A stretch of DNA of 64,000 nt, from positions 124,023-188,022 of the forward strand of contig NZ_JACYVH010000005.1 in assembly GCF_014842255.1 (NCBI RefSeq), given 5' to 3'. Position 1 is the stretch's first letter, and every line of letters starts with the position of its first letter. Of this stretch, positions 9,860 through 17,945 are shown piece by piece. The notes beneath the pieces were generated by a model. That model worked only from the letters and a program-made list of their open reading frames with translations. It was not told the origin of the DNA and did no database searches. Position numbers and translations under genes: made by a program. The DNA is from Frigoribacterium sp. CFBP 13712. GTDB taxonomy: Bacteria; Actinomycetota; Actinomycetes; Actinomycetales; Microbacteriaceae.

Positions 9860-11306
9860 GGTCGACGAGCACGGCACGGGACCCGCAGGAGGCGCGGCGA
9901 CGGCAGACGGGGTCGCTCCGGTCGACGAGGCGGTCGCGACCGCCGCCCCGACCCGCGCCTCCTCGGTGGACCTCGGGCTGACGCTGCCGCCGCTGCGGCG
10001 ACCCGTCGCGGTGCAGCGACCCGCCCCGCAGCAGCGACCTGAGCCGCAGCAGCGATCCGTCCCGCTGCAGCGACCGGTCCCGGTGCAGCGACCCGCGCCT
10101 CCTGCGGCATCGGTCGGGCGACCGCGCGGCACGGCCCGCGCGCTCGCGTTGCGCGAGCTCGTCCAGGAGCGCCGCCTCGCGTCGGTGCTCGCCGGCATGA
10201 CGCACTCGGCGTTCCCGCGGACCCTCGCCGGGCGCACCGCGATGCGGCTGCTGCTGGCGGCGCCCTTCGTGATCGTCGCGGTGCTGCTCGAGGTCGGGGG
10301 AGTGTCCGAATCCGTGTCGGCGAACGTCCTGCTCGTGGCCCGGACCGCGACCGTCGACTGGACGGGGTCGGGGGCCGCCTGGCTGGGCGACACGTTCCCG
10401 CCCATCACGGGTGTGGTCGCGGCGATCACCCCGGGAGGCGCGTTCGGCCTGTCGATCGTGGGAGCCCTCTGCGCCGGCGTCGTCGTGCACGCCATGATCG
10501 AGCTGATGGTGCAGCGGGGCTTCCACGCGTCGACCGTCACGGCGCTGACGCTCGCCCTCGTCGCGAACCCGCTGTTCTTCTTCCTGGCGACCGAGAACCT
10601 GCCGGCGTTCCTCGGCATCGCGTTCTTCGGGCTCGCGATGACCGACGTCGTCCGGTTCGTGACGTACCGCAACACGCAGTCCGGGTTCCGGGCCGGCATC
10701 CTGCTGATGCTCGCGACACTCACCGACCCCAACGGGCTGCTCTACGCGACGGCCGCGGTGCTGACGGTGCCGTTCCTGACGCACGGGCGGCATCAGGTCG
10801 GCGTGCACCGGGCGCATGCGCTGGTGCTGGTGTTCCCGACGCTGTCGGCGCTCGCCGCCCTGATGTTCGTGCAGTGGAGCTTCGGCGGCGACCCCCTCGG
10901 GGCGTTCCGCAGCGTGCTCGACTACGACGCCTCGCGCTGGCCGATCTTCTGGTCGCTGTTCACGACGCCGTTCGGCCTGCTGCTGCTCGCACCCGTGGCC
11001 AGCGCATGGTTGATGACCACCGTGGTGCGGCGCCTCGCGGGAGGTGTGGTCGGGACGCTCCTGCTGGCGGCGGTGCTGCTCGGATTCGTGATCGGCACGG
11101 TCCCGATGAACTCGGCGGGCAACACCTTCGTGCTCGTGACCCTGGCCGCGATCGCCCTCGTGCCGCCGTCGACCACGGTGCCGCGGATCGCCTTGGCCAA
11201 CGTGATGGCGCTGCTCCAGCTGACGATCGCCATCGCCGCGGCCCTGCAGCGCGACGTGGTCGTGCAGTGGATGGACACCGTGCTGAGGTCGCTCGGCCTG
11301 ACGTGA
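9834..11306 (+). CDS. Multi-pass membrane protein coupled to the glycosyltransferase
   Basis: A 490-residue protein with a ~110-residue disordered N-terminus containing a Gln-Arg-Pro repeat (QRPAPQQRPEPQQRSVPLQR), then about ten hydrophobic helices from residue 138 on. No catalytic motif was recognised. The start lies inside the glycosyltransferase frame (26-base overlap), so the two are made together; it may help export or modify the glycan, but this is inferred from position only. It ends at 11306, converging on the minus-strand YitT-like gene. Confidence 0.72.
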   Translation: MASPRTRPEVDEHGTGPAGGAATADGVAPVDEAVATAAPTRASSVDLGLTLPPLRRPVAVQRPAPQQRPEPQQRSVPLQRPVPVQRPAPPAASVGRPRGTARALALRELVQERRLASVLAGMTHSAFPRTLAGRTAMRLLLAAPFVIVAVLLEVGGVSESVSANVLLVARTATVDWTGSGAAWLGDTFPPITGVVAAITPGGAFGLSIVGALCAGVVVHAMIELMVQRGFHASTVTALTLALVANPLFFFLATENLPAFLGIAFFGLAMTDVVRFVTYRNTQSGFRAGILLMLATLTDPNGLLYATAAVLTVPFLTHGRHQVGVHRAHALVLVFPTLSALAALMFVQWSFGGDPLGAFRSVLDYDASRWPIFWSLFTTPFGLLLLAPVASAWLMTTVVRRLAGGVVGTLLLAAVLLGFVIGTVPMNSAGNTFVLVTLAAIALVPPSTTVPRIALANVMALLQLTIAIAAALQRDVVVQWMDTVLRSLGLT

Positions 11307-12194: not shown

Positions 12195-12257
12195 CATCGA
12201 AGTGACCCATCCGGGGCCCTCCCACCTCGCGAAGGCCCCGAACGAGTCACTTCGATG
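12195..12257 (+). repeat. 63-bp palindromic element, intergenic copy A
   Basis: Perfect 12-bp terminal arms CATCGAAGTGAC (12195-12206) and GTCACTTCGATG (12246-12257), with an inner pair CGGGGCC (12212-12218) and GGCCCCG (12234-12240). The same 63-bp design recurs at 13062 and twice inside fliO. Confidence 0.9.
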
Positions 12258-12281
12258 CCGCCCCGCCCTCCCTCCCTCCCC

Positions 12282-12310
12282 CCGAGGGCACCGAACGGGT
12301 CACTTCGATG
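12282..12310 (+). repeat. Right half of the 63-bp palindromic element
   Basis: Bases 12282-12310 repeat the right side of copy A, ending in the same arm GTCACTTCGATG (12299-12310); no left arm is present. It abuts the 3' end of the minus-strand membrane-protein gene. Confidence 0.7.
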
Positions 12311-12319
12311 CACCAGCCC

Positions 12320-12937
12320 TCACGCGGCGGTCGCCAGCACCAGGGGCACCACCACGATCGTCGTCGCGACGAGCACGAGGAGTCCCGTGACACCCGGCCG
12401 GCGGAGCGTGAACGTCAGGGTGCCCGGCATCTCCGCTTCGGCCTGAGGCCCCGTCATGGTCCGCTGCAGCGGCGTCGGATCCGCACCGACCCGTCGCGCC
12501 ACGTCGGCCAGCGCCTCGGGCGCGAAGTACGCCTCGGTCAGGCCGACCAGGCTGCCGGACGAGTCGCGCACGCCGACGTACTCGAGCTCTTCGAGGCCCT
12601 GCTTCAGGCGGCAGTGGACGCCGCGCTGCGTGCCGTCGAGCAGCACTGTGCTCTCGCGCCCGAGGCGCCGGTAGGTCAGGCGGTCGGCCGTCACGGTCAC
12701 CGTGGCGGTGCGGACGAAGACGATGAGGGTGGGGGCGACGATCGCGACGCCGACGGCGAGCACGATCAGCGTGCTGGGCCCCACGCGAGCCGTGACGAGC
12801 ACGAGGAGGAGGGCGAGCGGGATCAGCGTCCGCTTCGCCCGGCGCCCGAACGACGACCATGCGGGTCGGTGGACGACGGGCTCCGAACCGAGGGCGAGGG
12901 GGGATGCTGGCGAGGGGGAGGGGCGGAGGGGATCCAA
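12320..12937 (-). CDS. Small membrane protein of unknown function
   Basis: A 205-residue product with two adjacent N-terminal hydrophobic helices (about residues 37-76), a polar middle domain (TVTADRLTYRRLGRESTVLL onwards) resembling the small bacterial PH-like domains found after paired helices, and a third hydrophobic helix at the C-terminus (GLLVLVATTIVVVPLVLA). I do not recognise the family. The start is the TTG at 12937; no in-frame ATG or GTG lies close upstream and the ribosome site is weak, so the start is uncertain. Upstream (12938-13248, 311 bases) are a 6-bp inverted repeat CGATAG/CTATCG (12986-13008), a palindromic element and the flbD promoter. Confidence 0.65.
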   Translation of the reverse strand: MDPLRPSPSPASPLALGSEPVVHRPAWSSFGRRAKRTLIPLALLLVLVTARVGPSTLIVLAVGVAIVAPTLIVFVRTATVTVTADRLTYRRLGRESTVLLDGTQRGVHCRLKQGLEELEYVGVRDSSGSLVGLTEAYFAPEALADVARRVGADPTPLQRTMTGPQAEAEMPGTLTFTLRRPGVTGLLVLVATTIVVVPLVLATAA

Positions 12938-13061
12938 GGGCGTCGCTTTCGTCGGGCGGCGCTGTCGCCGCGTGGCCAGCCGTAACGATAGCGAATGTCA
13001 GCCTATCGCCCGATATCCGTACCCTCCCCTGTGGAAAGCCCCCGCGCCTCCTCGGCCGCCG

Positions 13062-13124
13062 CATCGATGCGACTCATCCGGGGGCCCCGCGCCCCGCGAA
13101 GGCCCCGAACGCGTCACCTCGATG
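13062..13124 (+). repeat. 63-bp palindromic element, intergenic copy B
   Basis: Left arm CATCGATGCGAC (13062-13073), right arm GTCACCTCGATG (13113-13124); the inner GGGGCC and GGCCCC pair is kept. The right 25 bases closely match copy A. It lies about 20 bases upstream of the putative flbD promoter. Confidence 0.85.
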
Positions 13125-13142
13125 CCGCCACCACCCCGCACC

Positions 13143-13169
13143 TAACGGCCACCGACCCCCGGCCGATAG
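13143..13169 (+). promoter_or_regulatory. Putative sigma-28 promoter upstream of flbD-motA-motB
   Basis: TAAC (13143-13146), 15 bases, then GCCGATAG (13162-13169): one base from the flagellar sigma-28 consensus in each half. Start expected near 13176, about 70 bases before the flbD ATG. Best match of the three sites in the window. Confidence 0.68.
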
Positions 13170-13248
13170 TGACCCGTAGCCACCCAGGACGGGAGGCCAC
13201 CCCGCCCCCACGGATGGAGGCGGGAGAACACAGACCTAGGACGGGCCG

Positions 13249-13605
13249 ATGATCGTCGTCACGCGACTCAACGACAGCAGATTCGCTGTCAATCCAGACC
13301 TCATCGAGCGCATCCACGAGACGCCCGACACGACGCTGATCATGGTCGACGGGGCGAAGTACATCGTGACCGAGCCGATGTCCGAGGTCATCGAGATGAT
13401 CGCCCGCTACCGGGCCCGCATCGTCGCGATCGCCTACGACGAGCCGCACGCGACGTCGCCGTCCGTGCAGCCGCTCGGCACGCGCAGCGGCACCGGTCCG
13501 CAGCTCGGGCTCGTCCGAGGCTCAGGAGGCGCGGGTCGACTCAGCGACCTCCGCCCGGCCCCCGCAGACGAACCCGCCCCGGCCACCACCCCCGCGGGGC
13601 GCTGA
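13249..13605 (+). CDS. flbD: FlbD-family flagellar protein
   Basis: A 118-residue protein whose first ~70 residues match the small Gram-positive FlbD family: IVVTRLNDSRFAVNPDLIER, then TPDTTLIMVDGAKYIV and EVIEMIARYRARIV. FlbD proteins of this kind are found next to motA/motB in Gram-positive flagellar operons; their role is not well defined (it is unrelated to the Caulobacter regulator of the same name). The C-terminal ~45 residues are a Gly/Pro/Ala-rich extension absent from most members. It is separated by one base from the motA GTG, and a sigma-28-like promoter lies 80 bases upstream. Confidence 0.88.
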   Translation: MIVVTRLNDSRFAVNPDLIERIHETPDTTLIMVDGAKYIVTEPMSEVIEMIARYRARIVAIAYDEPHATSPSVQPLGTRSGTGPQLGLVRGSGGAGRLSDLRPAPADEPAPATTPAGR

Positions 13606-13606
13606 C

Positions 13607-14425
13607 GTGGATCCCGCGACCATAATCGGCATCGTCCTCGCGTTCGGTGCGCTGTTCGGCATGATCCAGCTCGAGGGCGTGAACCTCATGGGTCTGCTGC
13701 TGCCCGCGCCGATCATCCTCGTGTTCGGGGCGACGATCGGCGTCGGCATCGCCGGCACCACGATCCGTGATGCGATCCTCAGCTTCACGAAGATCCCCCG
13801 CGCCTTCACCGGCAAGGTGATCCCGCCGCAGTCGGTGATCGACGGCATCGTGGGTCTCGCCGAGAAGGCGCGCAGCGAGGGGCTGCTGTCGCTCGAGGCC
13901 GAGGCCGAGAAGATGGACGACCCCTTCATGAAGGGCGCCCTGCAGAACATCGCCGACGGCACCGACGGCGAGGAGCTGCGGATCCTGCTGGAGGACGAGA
14001 TGGAGTCGCGTCTCGCGGCCGACCGCACGGCGTCGAAGTTCTTCATGAGTCTCGGCGGGTACGCGCCGACCGTGGGCATCGTCGGCACGGTCGTCAGCCT
14101 CACGCACGTGCTCGAGAACCTCGCCCAGCCCGACGAGCTCGGCCACATGATCGCCGCCGCGTTCGTCGCGACGCTCTGGGGCCTGCTCACCGCCAACTTC
14201 CTCTGGCTGCCCATCGGCGCCCGTCTCAAGAAGCTGGCCGATCTCGACGAGGCCCGCATGACGCTGCTGCTCGAGGGGGTGCTGGCGGTGCAGGCGGGAA
14301 GCCAGCCGCGCCTCCTCGGCGAACGCCTCAAGGCGATGGTCCCGTCGCATGCCCTCGAGCAGGGCGCGAAGGGCGCGAAGGCCACGAGCAGGGTCGACGC
14401 CGGCGACCGGGGGGTCTCGGTATGA
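13607..14425 (+). CDS. motA: Flagellar stator protein MotA
   Basis: MotA forms the ion-channel stator around a MotB dimer and pushes against FliG. The 272-residue product has four membrane helices (two N-terminal, two around 145-205). The FliG-contacting charges are conserved as R89 and E97 in KARSEGLLSLE. The channel prolines are seen in GGYAPTVGIVGTVV and in NFLWLPIGARL. GTG 13607 follows the flbD stop by one base and the stop overlaps the motB ATG (ATGA). The C-terminus has a short Lys/Ala-rich tail. Confidence 0.96.
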   Translation: MDPATIIGIVLAFGALFGMIQLEGVNLMGLLLPAPIILVFGATIGVGIAGTTIRDAILSFTKIPRAFTGKVIPPQSVIDGIVGLAEKARSEGLLSLEAEAEKMDDPFMKGALQNIADGTDGEELRILLEDEMESRLAADRTASKFFMSLGGYAPTVGIVGTVVSLTHVLENLAQPDELGHMIAAAFVATLWGLLTANFLWLPIGARLKKLADLDEARMTLLLEGVLAVQAGSQPRLLGERLKAMVPSHALEQGAKGAKATSRVDAGDRGVSV

Positions 14426-15462
14426 GCGGGTCGCGCGGCGCTCGCAAGAAGAAGGTCCACGAGGACGAGCACCCCGACGAGCGCTGGATGGCCTCGTACA
14501 TGGACATGATCACGGTGCTCATGTGCATGTTCATCGTGCTGTACGCGATGTCGACGGTCGATCAGGACAAATACGTCGCGCTCCGCAACTCGCTCGCGAC
14601 CGGCTTCGGGCAGACCGAGCTCGGCGCGATCGATTCGGCGTCGGGCACCGTCGTGCCGGTCGACCAGGTGACCCCCGAGGGCGAGGGGTACTCGGCGGGC
14701 GACGAGACCGACATGGCCGAGGCCGCGGCGTCAGGCGAGGCCGAGACCGGCGAGGGCACCGAGACGTCCGAGGCCCTGGCGAAGAGCGAGCTCGACGACC
14801 TGACGGCGATCAAGGCGGCCATCGAGGCGAATCTCGACGGGTCGGGCCTCAGCGCCGACGTGCAGTTCGCTACGGACGCCCGGGGGCTGACGGTGCGGCT
14901 GGTCGGCTCCGAGACGTTCTTCGGCACGAACAGCGCCGACCTGAGCGCCGAGGCGACGAGGGTCATGGACGCGATCGCGCCGGTGCTCAGCACCTCGGCG
15001 CACGACGTGTCGGTCGAGGGTCACGCCGATCAGCGCAGCTCGACGGCGCCGTTCGCGACGAACTGGGAGCTCTCGTCCGCGCGGGCGACGCAGGTGCTGC
15101 GCGATCTGGTCGAGCGGGGCGGCATGCCGGTCGAGCACATCCAGGCCGTCGGGTTCGGCTCGTCGCGTCCGCTGGCCGCCGGGGGGTCGCCCGCCGATCT
15201 CGCGGCGAACCGCCGGGTCGACATCGTCGTCCTGTCGAACCAGTCCGACGACGTCAGCGCCCTGCTGCCCGAGCTGCAGAGGGCCGCCGAGGGGGCCGGA
15301 GGCGCGGTGACCGCGGGCCGGAACGACGCCGCCGCCGAGGTGGCCGCCACCACGGCCGAGGCTCCCGAGCCGCTCGACGCCGAGGCGCCCGCCGCCGACG
15401 AGGCCCCCGACGACGCCGCCGCCGACCACGACTCCGAGGGGGCCCAGTCCGGGGGGCACTGA
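14422..15462 (+). CDS. motB: Flagellar stator protein MotB
   Basis: MotB anchors the stator to peptidoglycan and supplies the ion-binding aspartate. The 346-residue protein has one membrane helix (about 24-45) with the critical aspartate D28 in SYMDMITVLM, a long acidic linker, then an OmpA-like peptidoglycan-binding domain at about 155-275 with VEGHADQRSSTAPFATNWEL and LAANRRVDIVV. The last ~65 residues form an acidic Ala/Glu/Asp tail beyond the usual end. Overlap of four bases with motA shows coupling. No fliL follows; a putative sigma-28 promoter and fliM come next. Confidence 0.96.
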   Translation: MSGSRGARKKKVHEDEHPDERWMASYMDMITVLMCMFIVLYAMSTVDQDKYVALRNSLATGFGQTELGAIDSASGTVVPVDQVTPEGEGYSAGDETDMAEAAASGEAETGEGTETSEALAKSELDDLTAIKAAIEANLDGSGLSADVQFATDARGLTVRLVGSETFFGTNSADLSAEATRVMDAIAPVLSTSAHDVSVEGHADQRSSTAPFATNWELSSARATQVLRDLVERGGMPVEHIQAVGFGSSRPLAAGGSPADLAANRRVDIVVLSNQSDDVSALLPELQRAAEGAGGAVTAGRNDAAAEVAATTAEAPEPLDAEAPAADEAPDDAAADHDSEGAQSGGH

Positions 15463-15473
15463 TCACCGTTCTC

Positions 15474-15500
15474 TAACGCCCAGGAGGCGCGGGTCGATAG
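15474..15500 (+). promoter_or_regulatory. Putative sigma-28 promoter just before fliM
   Basis: TAAC (15474-15477), a 15-base spacer and GTCGATAG (15493-15500). The expected start near 15507 would leave almost no leader before GTG 15509, so a transcript from it would be leaderless or nearly so. The spacer contains the dispersed 9-mer GGAGGCGCG (15483-15491). Confidence 0.58.
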
Positions 15501-15508
15501 GTCCGTCC

Positions 15509-16444
15509 GTGACCCTCCTCGACGCTCCCGCACCGGCCGCGACCGCCGGCCCGTCGGCGCGCCCGCAGAGGACCGTCGAGGTCTACGACTTCCGCCGCCC
15601 GACGACGCTGGCGCGCGAGCACTCCCGCGTGCTCGAGCTGGCCTTCGAGACGTTCGCGCGCCAGTGGGGCACCCAGCTCACCGCGAAGGTGCGCGTGCTG
15701 TCGCAGGTCACCTCCGAGAGCGTCCAGATGCTCACCTACGACGACTACGCCGCGTCGCTGCCGGCGACCACGGCGATGGTGCTCTGCCCCCTCGAGGGGG
15801 TCGCGGCGAAGGCCGTCGTCCAGTTCTCGGCCTCGGCCGCGCTGGCCTGGGTCGGTCACATGCTGGGTGCGGCGAAGCCCCCGGTGACCCCCGAGCGCGC
15901 CTTCACGCCGATCGAGCAGGCGCTCGTCCGGCGTCTCATCGAAGACGCCCTCGACGATCTGCGGTACTCGTTCGGCGGGCTGCTCGTCGATCAGATCGGC
16001 GTCGGCGGCTTCCAGTACAACTCGCAGTTCGCCCAGGCGGCGCAGAAGTCCGATCTGATGATCGTCGCGGTCTTCACGATCCAGGTCGGCGAGCGCTCGT
16101 CGCTCGCGACCGTCGCCCTGCCGGCCGACGTGCTGCTGCCCCAGCTGGGCGACGCGACGCCGACGGTCGACCCGGCCGACGCCCGGCGTCTGCTCGGTGC
16201 GCAGCTGGCCTCGGTGCCGGTCGGCGTCTCCCTGCAGTTCGCCCCGGCCGCCGTGCTGCCGAGCGTGGTGCTCGGGTTGTCCGTCGGCGACGTGCTGCCC
16301 CTGCCGCACCCGCAGTCGCGTCCGCTCGAGATCCGCGTCGACGGTCAGCCCGTGGGTCGCGCCGCGGTCGCCTCGAACGGCTCCCGTCTCGCCGGGATCG
16401 TCGTCTCCACCTCACTGACCGGCACCGAAGAAGGAACCTCATGA
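15509..16444 (+). CDS. fliM: Flagellar motor switch protein FliM
   Basis: FliM links FliG to FliN in the C-ring. The 311-residue protein starts its conserved part at residue ~24 (EVYDFRRPTTLAREHSRVLE), followed by the CheC-like middle domain (about 40-230) and a SpoA domain at the end (VVLGLSVGDVLPLPHPQSRPLEIRV). The N-terminal CheY-P-binding motif found in most FliM (LSQxEIDALL type) is not present; the sequence before YDFRRP is a Pro/Ala stretch, and no in-frame start lies upstream that would add it. GTG 15509 is the only start between the motB stop and the conserved region. The stop overlaps the fliN ATG. Confidence 0.93.
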   Translation: MTLLDAPAPAATAGPSARPQRTVEVYDFRRPTTLAREHSRVLELAFETFARQWGTQLTAKVRVLSQVTSESVQMLTYDDYAASLPATTAMVLCPLEGVAAKAVVQFSASAALAWVGHMLGAAKPPVTPERAFTPIEQALVRRLIEDALDDLRYSFGGLLVDQIGVGGFQYNSQFAQAAQKSDLMIVAVFTIQVGERSSLATVALPADVLLPQLGDATPTVDPADARRLLGAQLASVPVGVSLQFAPAAVLPSVVLGLSVGDVLPLPHPQSRPLEIRVDGQPVGRAAVASNGSRLAGIVVSTSLTGTEEGTS

Positions 16445-17172
16445 CCGCCACGACCATCACCCTGCACACCGCGGCGGCCGAGGCCCTGGTCGCGAAGCTG
16501 CCGACGCCCACGCCGTTGCGGGCCGTCCTCCTCGACGCCGGGCAGTCCGCGCAGAACCGGACCGCCGCCTCCCCGGTCGTCGTCACGTCGTTCGTCGGCG
16601 GGGTCTCGGCCGACACGGCGCTGGTGCTCGTCGACATGGACCGTCTCGGTGCCGCCGCCGGCACCGACAGCCCGCTGGTCTCGGTGACCGACGTGCTCCG
16701 GCCTGCGCTCGAGGCCGCGACGTCGGTGCTCGGTGTGGGAGTGCTCGGCGAGAGCCGTCGCGAGCCCGCCGACACGCTGCTCGCCGACCCCGATACGGTC
16801 GTCTTCGATCTGACCGCAGCGGGAGCGCCCGCCGGCTGGTTCGCGATCCGCCTCCGCGAGAACGGGACGGTAGGAGGCGCGGCGCCCGTCGATCACGCCG
16901 CCCCGCTGTTCTCGTCGATGGCCGGCAACCTCGGTCGCATCAACAACGTCGAGATGGCCCTCACCGTCGAGATCGGTCGCACGCGGATGTCCGTCCGCGA
17001 CGTACTCGGACTCGAGCCCGGCGCCGTCGTCGAGCTCGACCGTTCGGCCGGGGCCCCCGCCGACGTGCTGCTGAACGGGCGCCTGATCGCGCACGGCGAG
17101 GTCGTCGTCGTCGACCAGGACTACGCGGTCCGCATCACGACCATCCTCGACGTCGCCGACGGCGCGATCTGA
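16441..17172 (+). CDS. fliN: Flagellar motor switch protein FliN (FliY-like, long form)
   Basis: FliN forms the lower C-ring and binds FliH. The 243-residue product is longer than Gram-negative FliN (~137): a CheC/FliY-like N-terminal part (about 1-155) precedes the SpoA domain (about 165-240) with NNVEMALTVEIGRTRMSVRD, VLGLEPGAVVELDRSAG and LLNGRLIAHGEVVVVDQDYA. The phosphatase signature of true FliY/CheC was not recognised. ATG 16441 overlaps the fliM stop and GAAGGAA lies about ten bases ahead. Confidence 0.93.
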   Translation: MTATTITLHTAAAEALVAKLPTPTPLRAVLLDAGQSAQNRTAASPVVVTSFVGGVSADTALVLVDMDRLGAAAGTDSPLVSVTDVLRPALEAATSVLGVGVLGESRREPADTLLADPDTVVFDLTAAGAPAGWFAIRLRENGTVGGAAPVDHAAPLFSSMAGNLGRINNVEMALTVEIGRTRMSVRDVLGLEPGAVVELDRSAGAPADVLLNGRLIAHGEVVVVDQDYAVRITTILDVADGAI

Positions 17173-17174
17173 TC

Positions 17175-17945
17175 GTGGACACGCTCTTCGTCGGACTCCG
17201 CGTCGTCCTCTCGCTCGGCGTCGTGCTCGCACTGCTCTACGTGCTGCAGAAGCGCATCGTCAAGGGCGGTCGCGCCGGTCGTCAGGCCGCGCAGGTGACG
17301 GTCGTGGCGCGCCAGGGGATCGGTGCGAAGGCCAGCGTCGTCGTGGTCGACGTCGAGGGCGAGCGACTCGTGCTCGGGGTCACCGACGCGTCGGTCACGG
17401 TGCTGGCCGCCGCCGACCGTCCGGTCGAACCGGTCGCGCTCGAGCTCGTCCCGGCTCCCGCTGCGGCCCCGGCTCGGGCTGCGACTCCGGCCCAGGCACC
17501 GGCTCCGAGCTTCGCCGCGGTGCTCTCCGCCCATCGAGGTGACGCGACCGGTGCGGTCCCCGCCCCGGAGGCCCCCCGACGCGTCACGTCGATCGCGCCT
17601 GTGCCCGCTGCGGCCGCCCAGAGCGTCGCCGCGGTGCTCTCCGCCCATCGAGGTGACGCAACCGGTGCGGTCCCCGCCCCAGAAGCCGCCCGACGCGTCA
17701 CATCGATCGCGCCTGCGCCCGCGGCCGGCGCGGCCGGCGACGCTGGCGCGAGCGCCGCGAGCAGCGAGCCGATGCTGCGGCCGCGCGGCGCCGCGCGCCG
17801 CGCGGCGGCCGTCCGCGAGCGCGCCCCGCGCGACCTCGCCGAGCGTCGCACCGGTCGCGCCGCGAAGGCCCTCGACGGCTCGATCCTCGCCCCCGACACC
17901 TGGCGGCAGGCGGCCTCGGCCCTCCGCAGCGGTCGAGCCGGATGA
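17175..17945 (+). CDS. fliO: Flagellar biosynthesis protein FliO, with two embedded palindromic elements
   Basis: FliO is a membrane chaperone for FliP assembly in the export gate. One helix at about residues 5-25 is followed by the conserved FliO core (VTVVARQGIGAKASVVVVDV, ERLVLGVTDASVTVL). The remaining ~165 residues are Ala/Pro-rich and contain a 38-residue tandem duplication (about 113-188); each unit holds a complete 63-bp palindromic element read in frame, starting HRGDATGAVPAPEA. The protein is 256 residues, about twice the length of a typical FliO. GTG 17175 lies two bases after the fliN stop; the end overlaps fliP by four bases. Confidence 0.9.
   Translation: MDTLFVGLRVVLSLGVVLALLYVLQKRIVKGGRAGRQAAQVTVVARQGIGAKASVVVVDVEGERLVLGVTDASVTVLAAADRPVEPVALELVPAPAAAPARAATPAQAPAPSFAAVLSAHRGDATGAVPAPEAPRRVTSIAPVPAAAAQSVAAVLSAHRGDATGAVPAPEAARRVTSIAPAPAAGAAGDAGASAASSEPMLRPRGAARRAAAVRERAPRDLAERRTGRAAKALDGSILAPDTWRQAASALRSGRAG
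17532..17594 (+). repeat. 63-bp palindromic element inside fliO, copy C
   Basis: Left arm CATCGAGGTGAC (17532-17543), right arm GTCACGTCGATC (17583-17594). Same length and orientation as the intergenic copies; 63 bases are 21 codons, and the element starts on a codon boundary (residue 120 of FliO). Confidence 0.88.
17646..17708 (+). repeat. 63-bp palindromic element inside fliO, copy D
   Basis: Left arm CATCGAGGTGAC (17646-17657), right arm GTCACATCGATC (17697-17708). It lies exactly 114 bases after copy C, and the flanks repeat too, so C and D arose by tandem duplication of a 114-bp unit. Confidence 0.88.

Follow-up and report, generated by a model that had tools for sequence, protein, structure and literature searches.

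We identified a 63-bp palindromic element in a 64,000-nucleotide stretch of the genome of Frigoribacterium sp. CFBP 13712 (contig NZ_JACYVH010000005.1, positions 124,023 to 188,022; hereafter the window), in which copies stand both between genes and in frame within the flagellar gene fliO. The palindromic repeat is real, occurs across the family Microbacteriaceae, and combines a near-fixed length with half-sites that are specific to individual lineages. Comparisons were made among 16 genomes of the genus Frigoribacterium, including the window genome (G000), and 398 genomes of the Microbacteriaceae. Genes at element sites were called by a heuristic based on GC content at third codon positions. 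The loci fetched from other genomes were mostly picked around elements, as were about half of the G007 stretches, and element densities are therefore biased. The arrays of copies do not count as independent units.

Geometry and distribution of the palindrome

The window holds four copies of exactly 63 bp, all imperfect palindromes, with 24, 22, 21 and 19 of 31 pairs complementary, in agreement with the original prediction. The copy at 12195..12257 carries GTGAC arms and is intergenic, between two minus-strand genes; that at 13062..13124 lies between divergent genes, upstream of an flbD-like gene (PF06289, 13249..13605, plus strand) that serves as the flanking landmark of the site; and those at 17532..17594 and 17646..17708 lie on the plus strand within fliO. 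The predicted half copy at 12282..12310 proved to be the right half of a decayed element, its right arm ending at 12310, whose 63-bp frame would begin at 12248. Using a position-weight matrix trained with the copies at 12195 and 13062 included and the two fliO copies left out, the four copies scored 64.5, 58.0, 56.8 and 56.8 bits and the half copy, in its 12248 frame, 15.9 bits; elsewhere on the plus strand of the window no position exceeded -16 bits. The common orientation that had been noted for the copies means little for a palindrome.

The length of the element is tightly kept. Across 20 fetched loci and the window, opposed arm pairs (at most 4 arm mismatches, spans of 30-119 bp) numbered 71 at a span of 63, one at 62 and two at 64, one of the 71 (window 38300) being a chance occurrence in coding sequence. 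At no more than 2 arm mismatches, the fetched loci held 93 pairs at a span of 63, a few of them by chance, and the 63-bp peak was present in G000, G005, G006, G007, G011 and G012. The arms follow the consensus C/G-A/G-TCGA-N-GTGAC-N-C, variable at positions 7 and 13, and are followed at positions 14-16 by C-R-A in 55 of 70 copies, an echo, one helical turn further along, of the CGA at positions 4-6. Interiors show column preferences (G20, C44) and otherwise no relatedness between arrays: identity was 0.51 between arrays against 0.52 expected from the columns, compared to 0.76 within arrays and 0.29 for random sequence at the same GC. A length frozen around unrelated interiors indicates a constraint on spacing. 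A six-base periodicity of the conserved columns, considered at first, was abandoned.

The element is dispersed well beyond the window, contrary to the outcome that would have refuted the original prediction. The genome holds 110 occurrences of the arm ATCGANGTGAC, 63 of them forward and 47 reverse, and none of its reversed control. At the fixed span, arms with exact GTGAC or GTGCC sequence gave 70 matches in G000 (control, 0), 20 in G006, 8 in G011 and 7 in G005, and none in the other 12 genus genomes; a TTGCC pattern gave 29 in G007, 15 in G012 and 14 in G011, with 0-1 in controls. A covariance model matched 8 of the 16 genus genomes at E <= 1e-4 and 46 of the 398 family genomes, in 25 of 85 genera, at E <= 1e-5; the family figure is rough, since that search used stricter filters and may also reward generic GC palindromes. 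The element is also present in records of Frigoribacterium endophyticum and F. faeni.

At least 71 matches outside G000 came from a generic arm pattern in which the gap was left free. Among the matches listed, 55 were palindromic, with cores of 58, 59 or 60 bases (15, 34 and 6 matches) and total lengths of 62-64 bp, and came from at least 25 genomes besides G000, most with arms of their own; the 16 other matches listed had scattered lengths, six of them at 58-59. The original prediction had noted that the multiple-of-three length makes the element frame-neutral. That this length is an adaptation is not supported, other genera having versions of 62, 63 and 64 bp and fliO being the sole coding case verified: frame-neutrality is incidental. 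Outside the family, an order-wide search, which would miss elements with other arm motifs, matched 7 of 274 genomes, at chance-like lengths of 50-69 and not palindromic by eye. Many 49-bp matches among those listed in a contig scan were set aside as resembling rpoC coding sequence (six judged by eye). The GTGAC pattern had no match in viral contigs, phages lying outside that search, and a 301-bp query against plasmids returned one irrelevant match.

Arm types, shared sites and the fliO copies

Within one fixed architecture, arm types differ by lineage, with GTGAC, GTGCC, TTGCC and TGGTC types in the genus and many others in the family. In G000 and G005 most arms are GTGAC, GTGCC and hybrid copies being fewer; G006 carries a mixture of GTGAC and GTGCC, G007, G012 and G001 carry TTGCC, and G011 carries both GTGAC and TTGCC. 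Non-carriers are here the genomes without a match to the GTGAC and TTGCC models; one of these, G015, holds a single TCGA-type palindrome with another arm. A further type, with TGAGTTGCCACTTTG arms, was noted as several neighbouring copies on L225 of G006.

A comparison of flanking genes resolved 121 sites in eight genomes into 83 places, and at 21 of them two or more species carry an element. The type sets differ at 14 of these 21, in three cases only through a hybrid copy. G011 and G012 share six places against 0.2-0.7 expected. At the place shared by G011 (L296) and G001 (L316), the core agrees at 27 of 29 bases and the arms at only 9 of 12 and 7 of 12. The place upstream of flbD (window copy 13062) bears GTGAC arms in G005, GTGCC in G006 and TGGTC in G001, G002 and G012. 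A CCGACGCG-type palindrome was recorded at the same place in G011 (L208:2265) and G007 (L211), the former adjoining an apparent decayed TGGTC half element. No common regulon theme emerged from the Pfam domains of 20 proteins encoded beside 12 shared sites.

The fliO gene (17175..17945, plus strand) encodes a FliO domain (PF04347) at residues 24-118, and the codons of the element lie C-terminal to this domain, ahead of the conserved C-terminus. Both copies are in frame, as predicted, the first adding 21 codons; they do not represent two insertions, the second being the product of a 114-bp tandem duplication that includes the first, an offset at which 115 of 141 bases match. We found the element in fliO in five of the 16 genus genomes, and no recognisable copy in the other 11 orthologues. 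Beside the two copies in G000, there is a single decayed one in G005 (30.7 bits), and a 63-bp TTGCC-type copy in the same linker in each of G001, G007 and G011. A single linker thus holds GTGAC-like arms in G000 and G005 and TTGCC arms in G001, G007 and G011. The right arm overlaps a coding motif (RVT-P/S-IAP) also present in orthologues without the element, and part of the sequence may therefore predate it. The fliO gene is the sole verified coding case. In G004 (L202/L217), the fliO frame diverges after RVTPIAPVA and the conserved C-terminus is lost, through a frameshift or a sequencing error.

Arrays, gene junctions and folding

Copies cluster through local duplication, with spacers that often differ in length by about ten bases. 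Taking one spacing per array in 22 arrays, spacings fell near multiples of 10.4 bp (R=0.66), with an observed maximum of 0.79 compared to 0.61 at the 99.9% point of the null. Eight mostly new arrays, with spacings that include 93, 95 and 104 bp in G007, G012 and G006, agreed moderately (V-test u=3.3 for 19 spacings, and 1.7 when each array contributes one). We consider the phasing of arrays at about 10.4 bp suggestive.

The 121 sites comprised 49 in tandem, 41 convergent and 10 divergent junctions, 19 labelled as inside genes and two unclear; four of the 19 are the fliO copies of relatives, the others being unverified, and the window fliO site was mislabelled as tandem. Ordinary junctions of at least 100 bp, sampled from G015, were tandem in 78 cases, convergent in 28 and divergent in 29. 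By heuristic gene calls, and against this baseline from another species, convergent junctions are in excess (41 of 100 junction sites against 28 of 135; p=0.0009) and divergent junctions in deficit (p=0.02). Of 131 stop-codon distances, 85 were 60 bp or less. The element thus displays the bias to gene 3' ends and convergent junctions that is typical of bacterial interspersed mosaic elements (BIMEs).

The arms within G000 are conserved as sequence, without co-variation at the two variable positions: position 7 pairs in 31% of cases against 39% by chance, and position 13 in 46% against 38%. Single strands of six copies fold well. No T-tract was seen by eye after the copies inspected, and terminators without T-tracts remain compatible with this. 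Across 14 loci, Rfam returned only a tRNA and one sub-threshold microRNA match (E 0.094) on L170.

We investigated possible sources of mobility. The REP-associated tyrosine transposase (RAYT; REP, repetitive extragenic palindrome) towards which the original prediction had pointed was not found in the genus: the Y1_Tnp domain (PF01797) was absent from all 16 genomes, and occurred in three of the 398 family genomes, one of which (G026) carries the element; five of 14 control genomes were positive in both searches. Direct repeats flanking the 70 G000 copies were no more frequent than in shuffles (two at 3 bp against 2.4, none at 4-9 bp), and the copies look old, with no clean empty site alignable. 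No parent transposon with the ends of the element was noticed among the arm positions listed, in a transposase search aimed at Y1 only.

Interpretation and comparison with known repeats

Our preferred reading, which we hold with slightly less than even confidence, is that the element is a RAYT-independent pair of putative protein half-sites, biased to gene 3' ends and similar to the REP doublets forming hairpins known as REPINs. The lack of co-variation at positions 7 and 13, together with the array spacing near 10.4 bp, indicates recognition of double-stranded DNA by a putative protein. Each element would consist of two inverted, sequence-specific half-sites of about 24 bp in a fixed 63-bp geometry of about six helical turns, recognised as a pair by that protein; each half may comprise two subsites about 10 bp apart, CGA (4-6) and C-R-A (14-16). 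Such elements would behave as REPINs or BIMEs do, dispersed, lineage-specific and accumulating mainly at gene 3' ends in local arrays. Drift in the specificity of the putative protein would then give different arms to different lineages under the same architecture, and the fliO linker may have tolerated one element in frame that was later tandem-duplicated. A part played in the structure of the chromosome, in termination or in spread would be conjectural.

Several observations weigh against this reading. G000 shows a small overall excess of pairing, most evident at pair 17/47: the value is 0.051 in the true register and never above 0.018 when the register is shifted. The complementary arms form strong hairpins as well (z of -2.6 to -10.6 in six copies). 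The arms of G006 match each other beyond independent assortment (11 A/A, 5 C/C and 4 hybrids; p=0.015). Counting only unique spacing values weakens the phasing (p=0.02), and G000 and G006 have spacings of 183-184 bp that are off the phase. The shared-site excess is not significant for G000-G006 (five places) or G000-G011 (four) if only 300 places are available, and most flanks of shared sites could not be aligned by eye, which does not favour a simple switch of arms. The flbD place is occupied in G007 and G011 by a palindrome of another family, and some places may therefore simply tolerate palindromes. The binding protein itself is putative.

Many of the same data bear on a minimal, non-autonomous mobile element, either REPIN-like or a miniature inverted-repeat transposable element (MITE), whose arms would be recognised as ends by a putative transposase, without gain to the host. 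Such an origin would account for copy numbers that vary widely in the genus, from model matches in half of the genomes to exact counts of 70, 20, 8, 7 and twelve zeros; for the occupation of fliO in only five of 16 genomes; and for the several unrelated families of similar size that lie side by side in G007 and G015. The element has the terminal inverted repeats expected of a MITE, and shares the plan of REPINs, two conserved ends and a length-constrained spacer (PMC3116915). We nonetheless consider this explanation rather unlikely, given the absence of Y1 transposases from the genus (the systematic search did not extend to further transposase families or to long elements bounded by such ends), flanking direct repeats without excess, which old copies could however have lost, and an exact length kept around dissimilar interiors. 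Moreover, the sharing of sites between G011 and G012 beyond expectation indicates that copies remain at their sites.

An RNA hairpin at transcript 3' ends, acting as a terminator or exonuclease barrier with the DNA palindrome as its mere template, would fit the strong folds, the proximity to stop codons and the convergent-junction excess. It appears improbable, as the arms are fixed in sequence within each genome and do not co-vary, positions 7 and 13 do not pair more often than by chance, T-tracts are absent by eye after the copies inspected, copies also occur in fliO and between divergent genes, and neither the fixed length nor the array phasing is explained. Chance resemblance or purely local duplication could draw on the tandem origin of the fliO pair and on the overlap of its right arm with the motif of element-free orthologues. 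This is scarcely credible beside 70 exact-arm matches genome-wide with none in the control, and the roughly 73 bits that separate the fliO copies from the best non-element position in the window; it is refuted for the family as a whole, and for fliO the copies of G005, G001, G007 and G011 weigh against it.

Among known repeats, REPINs share the most with the element: two conserved inverted ends, a length-constrained variable spacer, dispersal, a mostly extragenic location, tandem clusters and lineage specificity (PMC3116915). Unlike REPINs, the element occurs in a genus without RAYTs, has a different motif and changes arm identity between species at shared sites; REPINs also show compensatory changes, of which the element shows little in G000. 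The GTAG and CGTC super-families of REPs are likewise palindromic, biased to downstream and convergent positions and in some cases intragenic. These REPs measure 20-40 bp, and CGTC REPs, which lack a dedicated transposase, have stems of 8-9 bp and loops of 4-5 bp and are known from Proteobacteria, Chlorobi, Bacteroidetes, Spirochaetes and Thermotogae (PMC3733652). The element differs from these CGTC REPs in its length of 62-64 bp, its occurrence in Microbacteriaceae and its paired ends in place of an unpaired CGTC tag at one end; CGTC does open 19 of the 70 copies, by coincidence, yet there it is base-paired and present at both ends. BIMEs similarly form palindrome arrays, frequent between convergent genes, and REPs and BIMEs of Escherichia coli are sites for gyrase, integration host factor (IHF) and DNA polymerase I (Pol I) (PMC1525189); motif and size differ from those of the element, for which binding is putative. 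Kinship with Rickettsia palindromic elements is not supported, the likeness being limited to in-frame presence in a protein gene: those elements are about 150 bp long, lie in frame in many genes and encode a conserved peptide (PMC10969869), in contrast to a 63-bp element with one verified gene and a location mostly at gene junctions. We found no description of such a repeat class in Microbacteriaceae in the open-licence literature searched.

We tentatively advance a broader proposal, which we would not yet expect to hold in full, of a RAYT-independent, REPIN-like system of Microbacteriaceae, in which a trans-acting DNA-binding protein would co-evolve with genome-wide dyads of 62-64 bp, and orthologous sites, one of them in a flagellar gene, would keep position and geometry while both half-sites are rewritten in each species. 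If true, this would extend REP and REPIN biology to the Microbacteriaceae and separate it from the RAYT transposase, and sites of kept position and length with changed arms would constitute a natural experiment on DNA-binding specificity and on how dozens of sites change together. As the fliO copy shows, a coding gene can tolerate such a dyad and, in G000, its duplication.

We additionally noted other repeats. A second over-represented window motif, AGGAGGCGCGGGTC, has 23 matches in the 64 kb (at most 2 mismatches) against 3.1 expected, a number reached in none of 100 shuffles; exact copies lie at 9950, 10090, 13524, 15482 and 17971, and 18 more are inexact. It often stands beside 63-bp copies, and codes for part of QEARVTPIAP in the fliO of relatives. 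In L226-L265 (stretches of G007 and G015) there are further palindrome families, about 60 bp long and with a plan by eye of 8-11-8-6-8-11-8, for example at L229:17887, L232:472, L249:4334, L265:16034 and L228:7326. In several of them each arm contains a direct repeat (GAACCGCG, GAACCCCG, GCACCCGG, CCGACGCG and others), and these families occur even in G015, which is without the GTGAC and TTGCC types.

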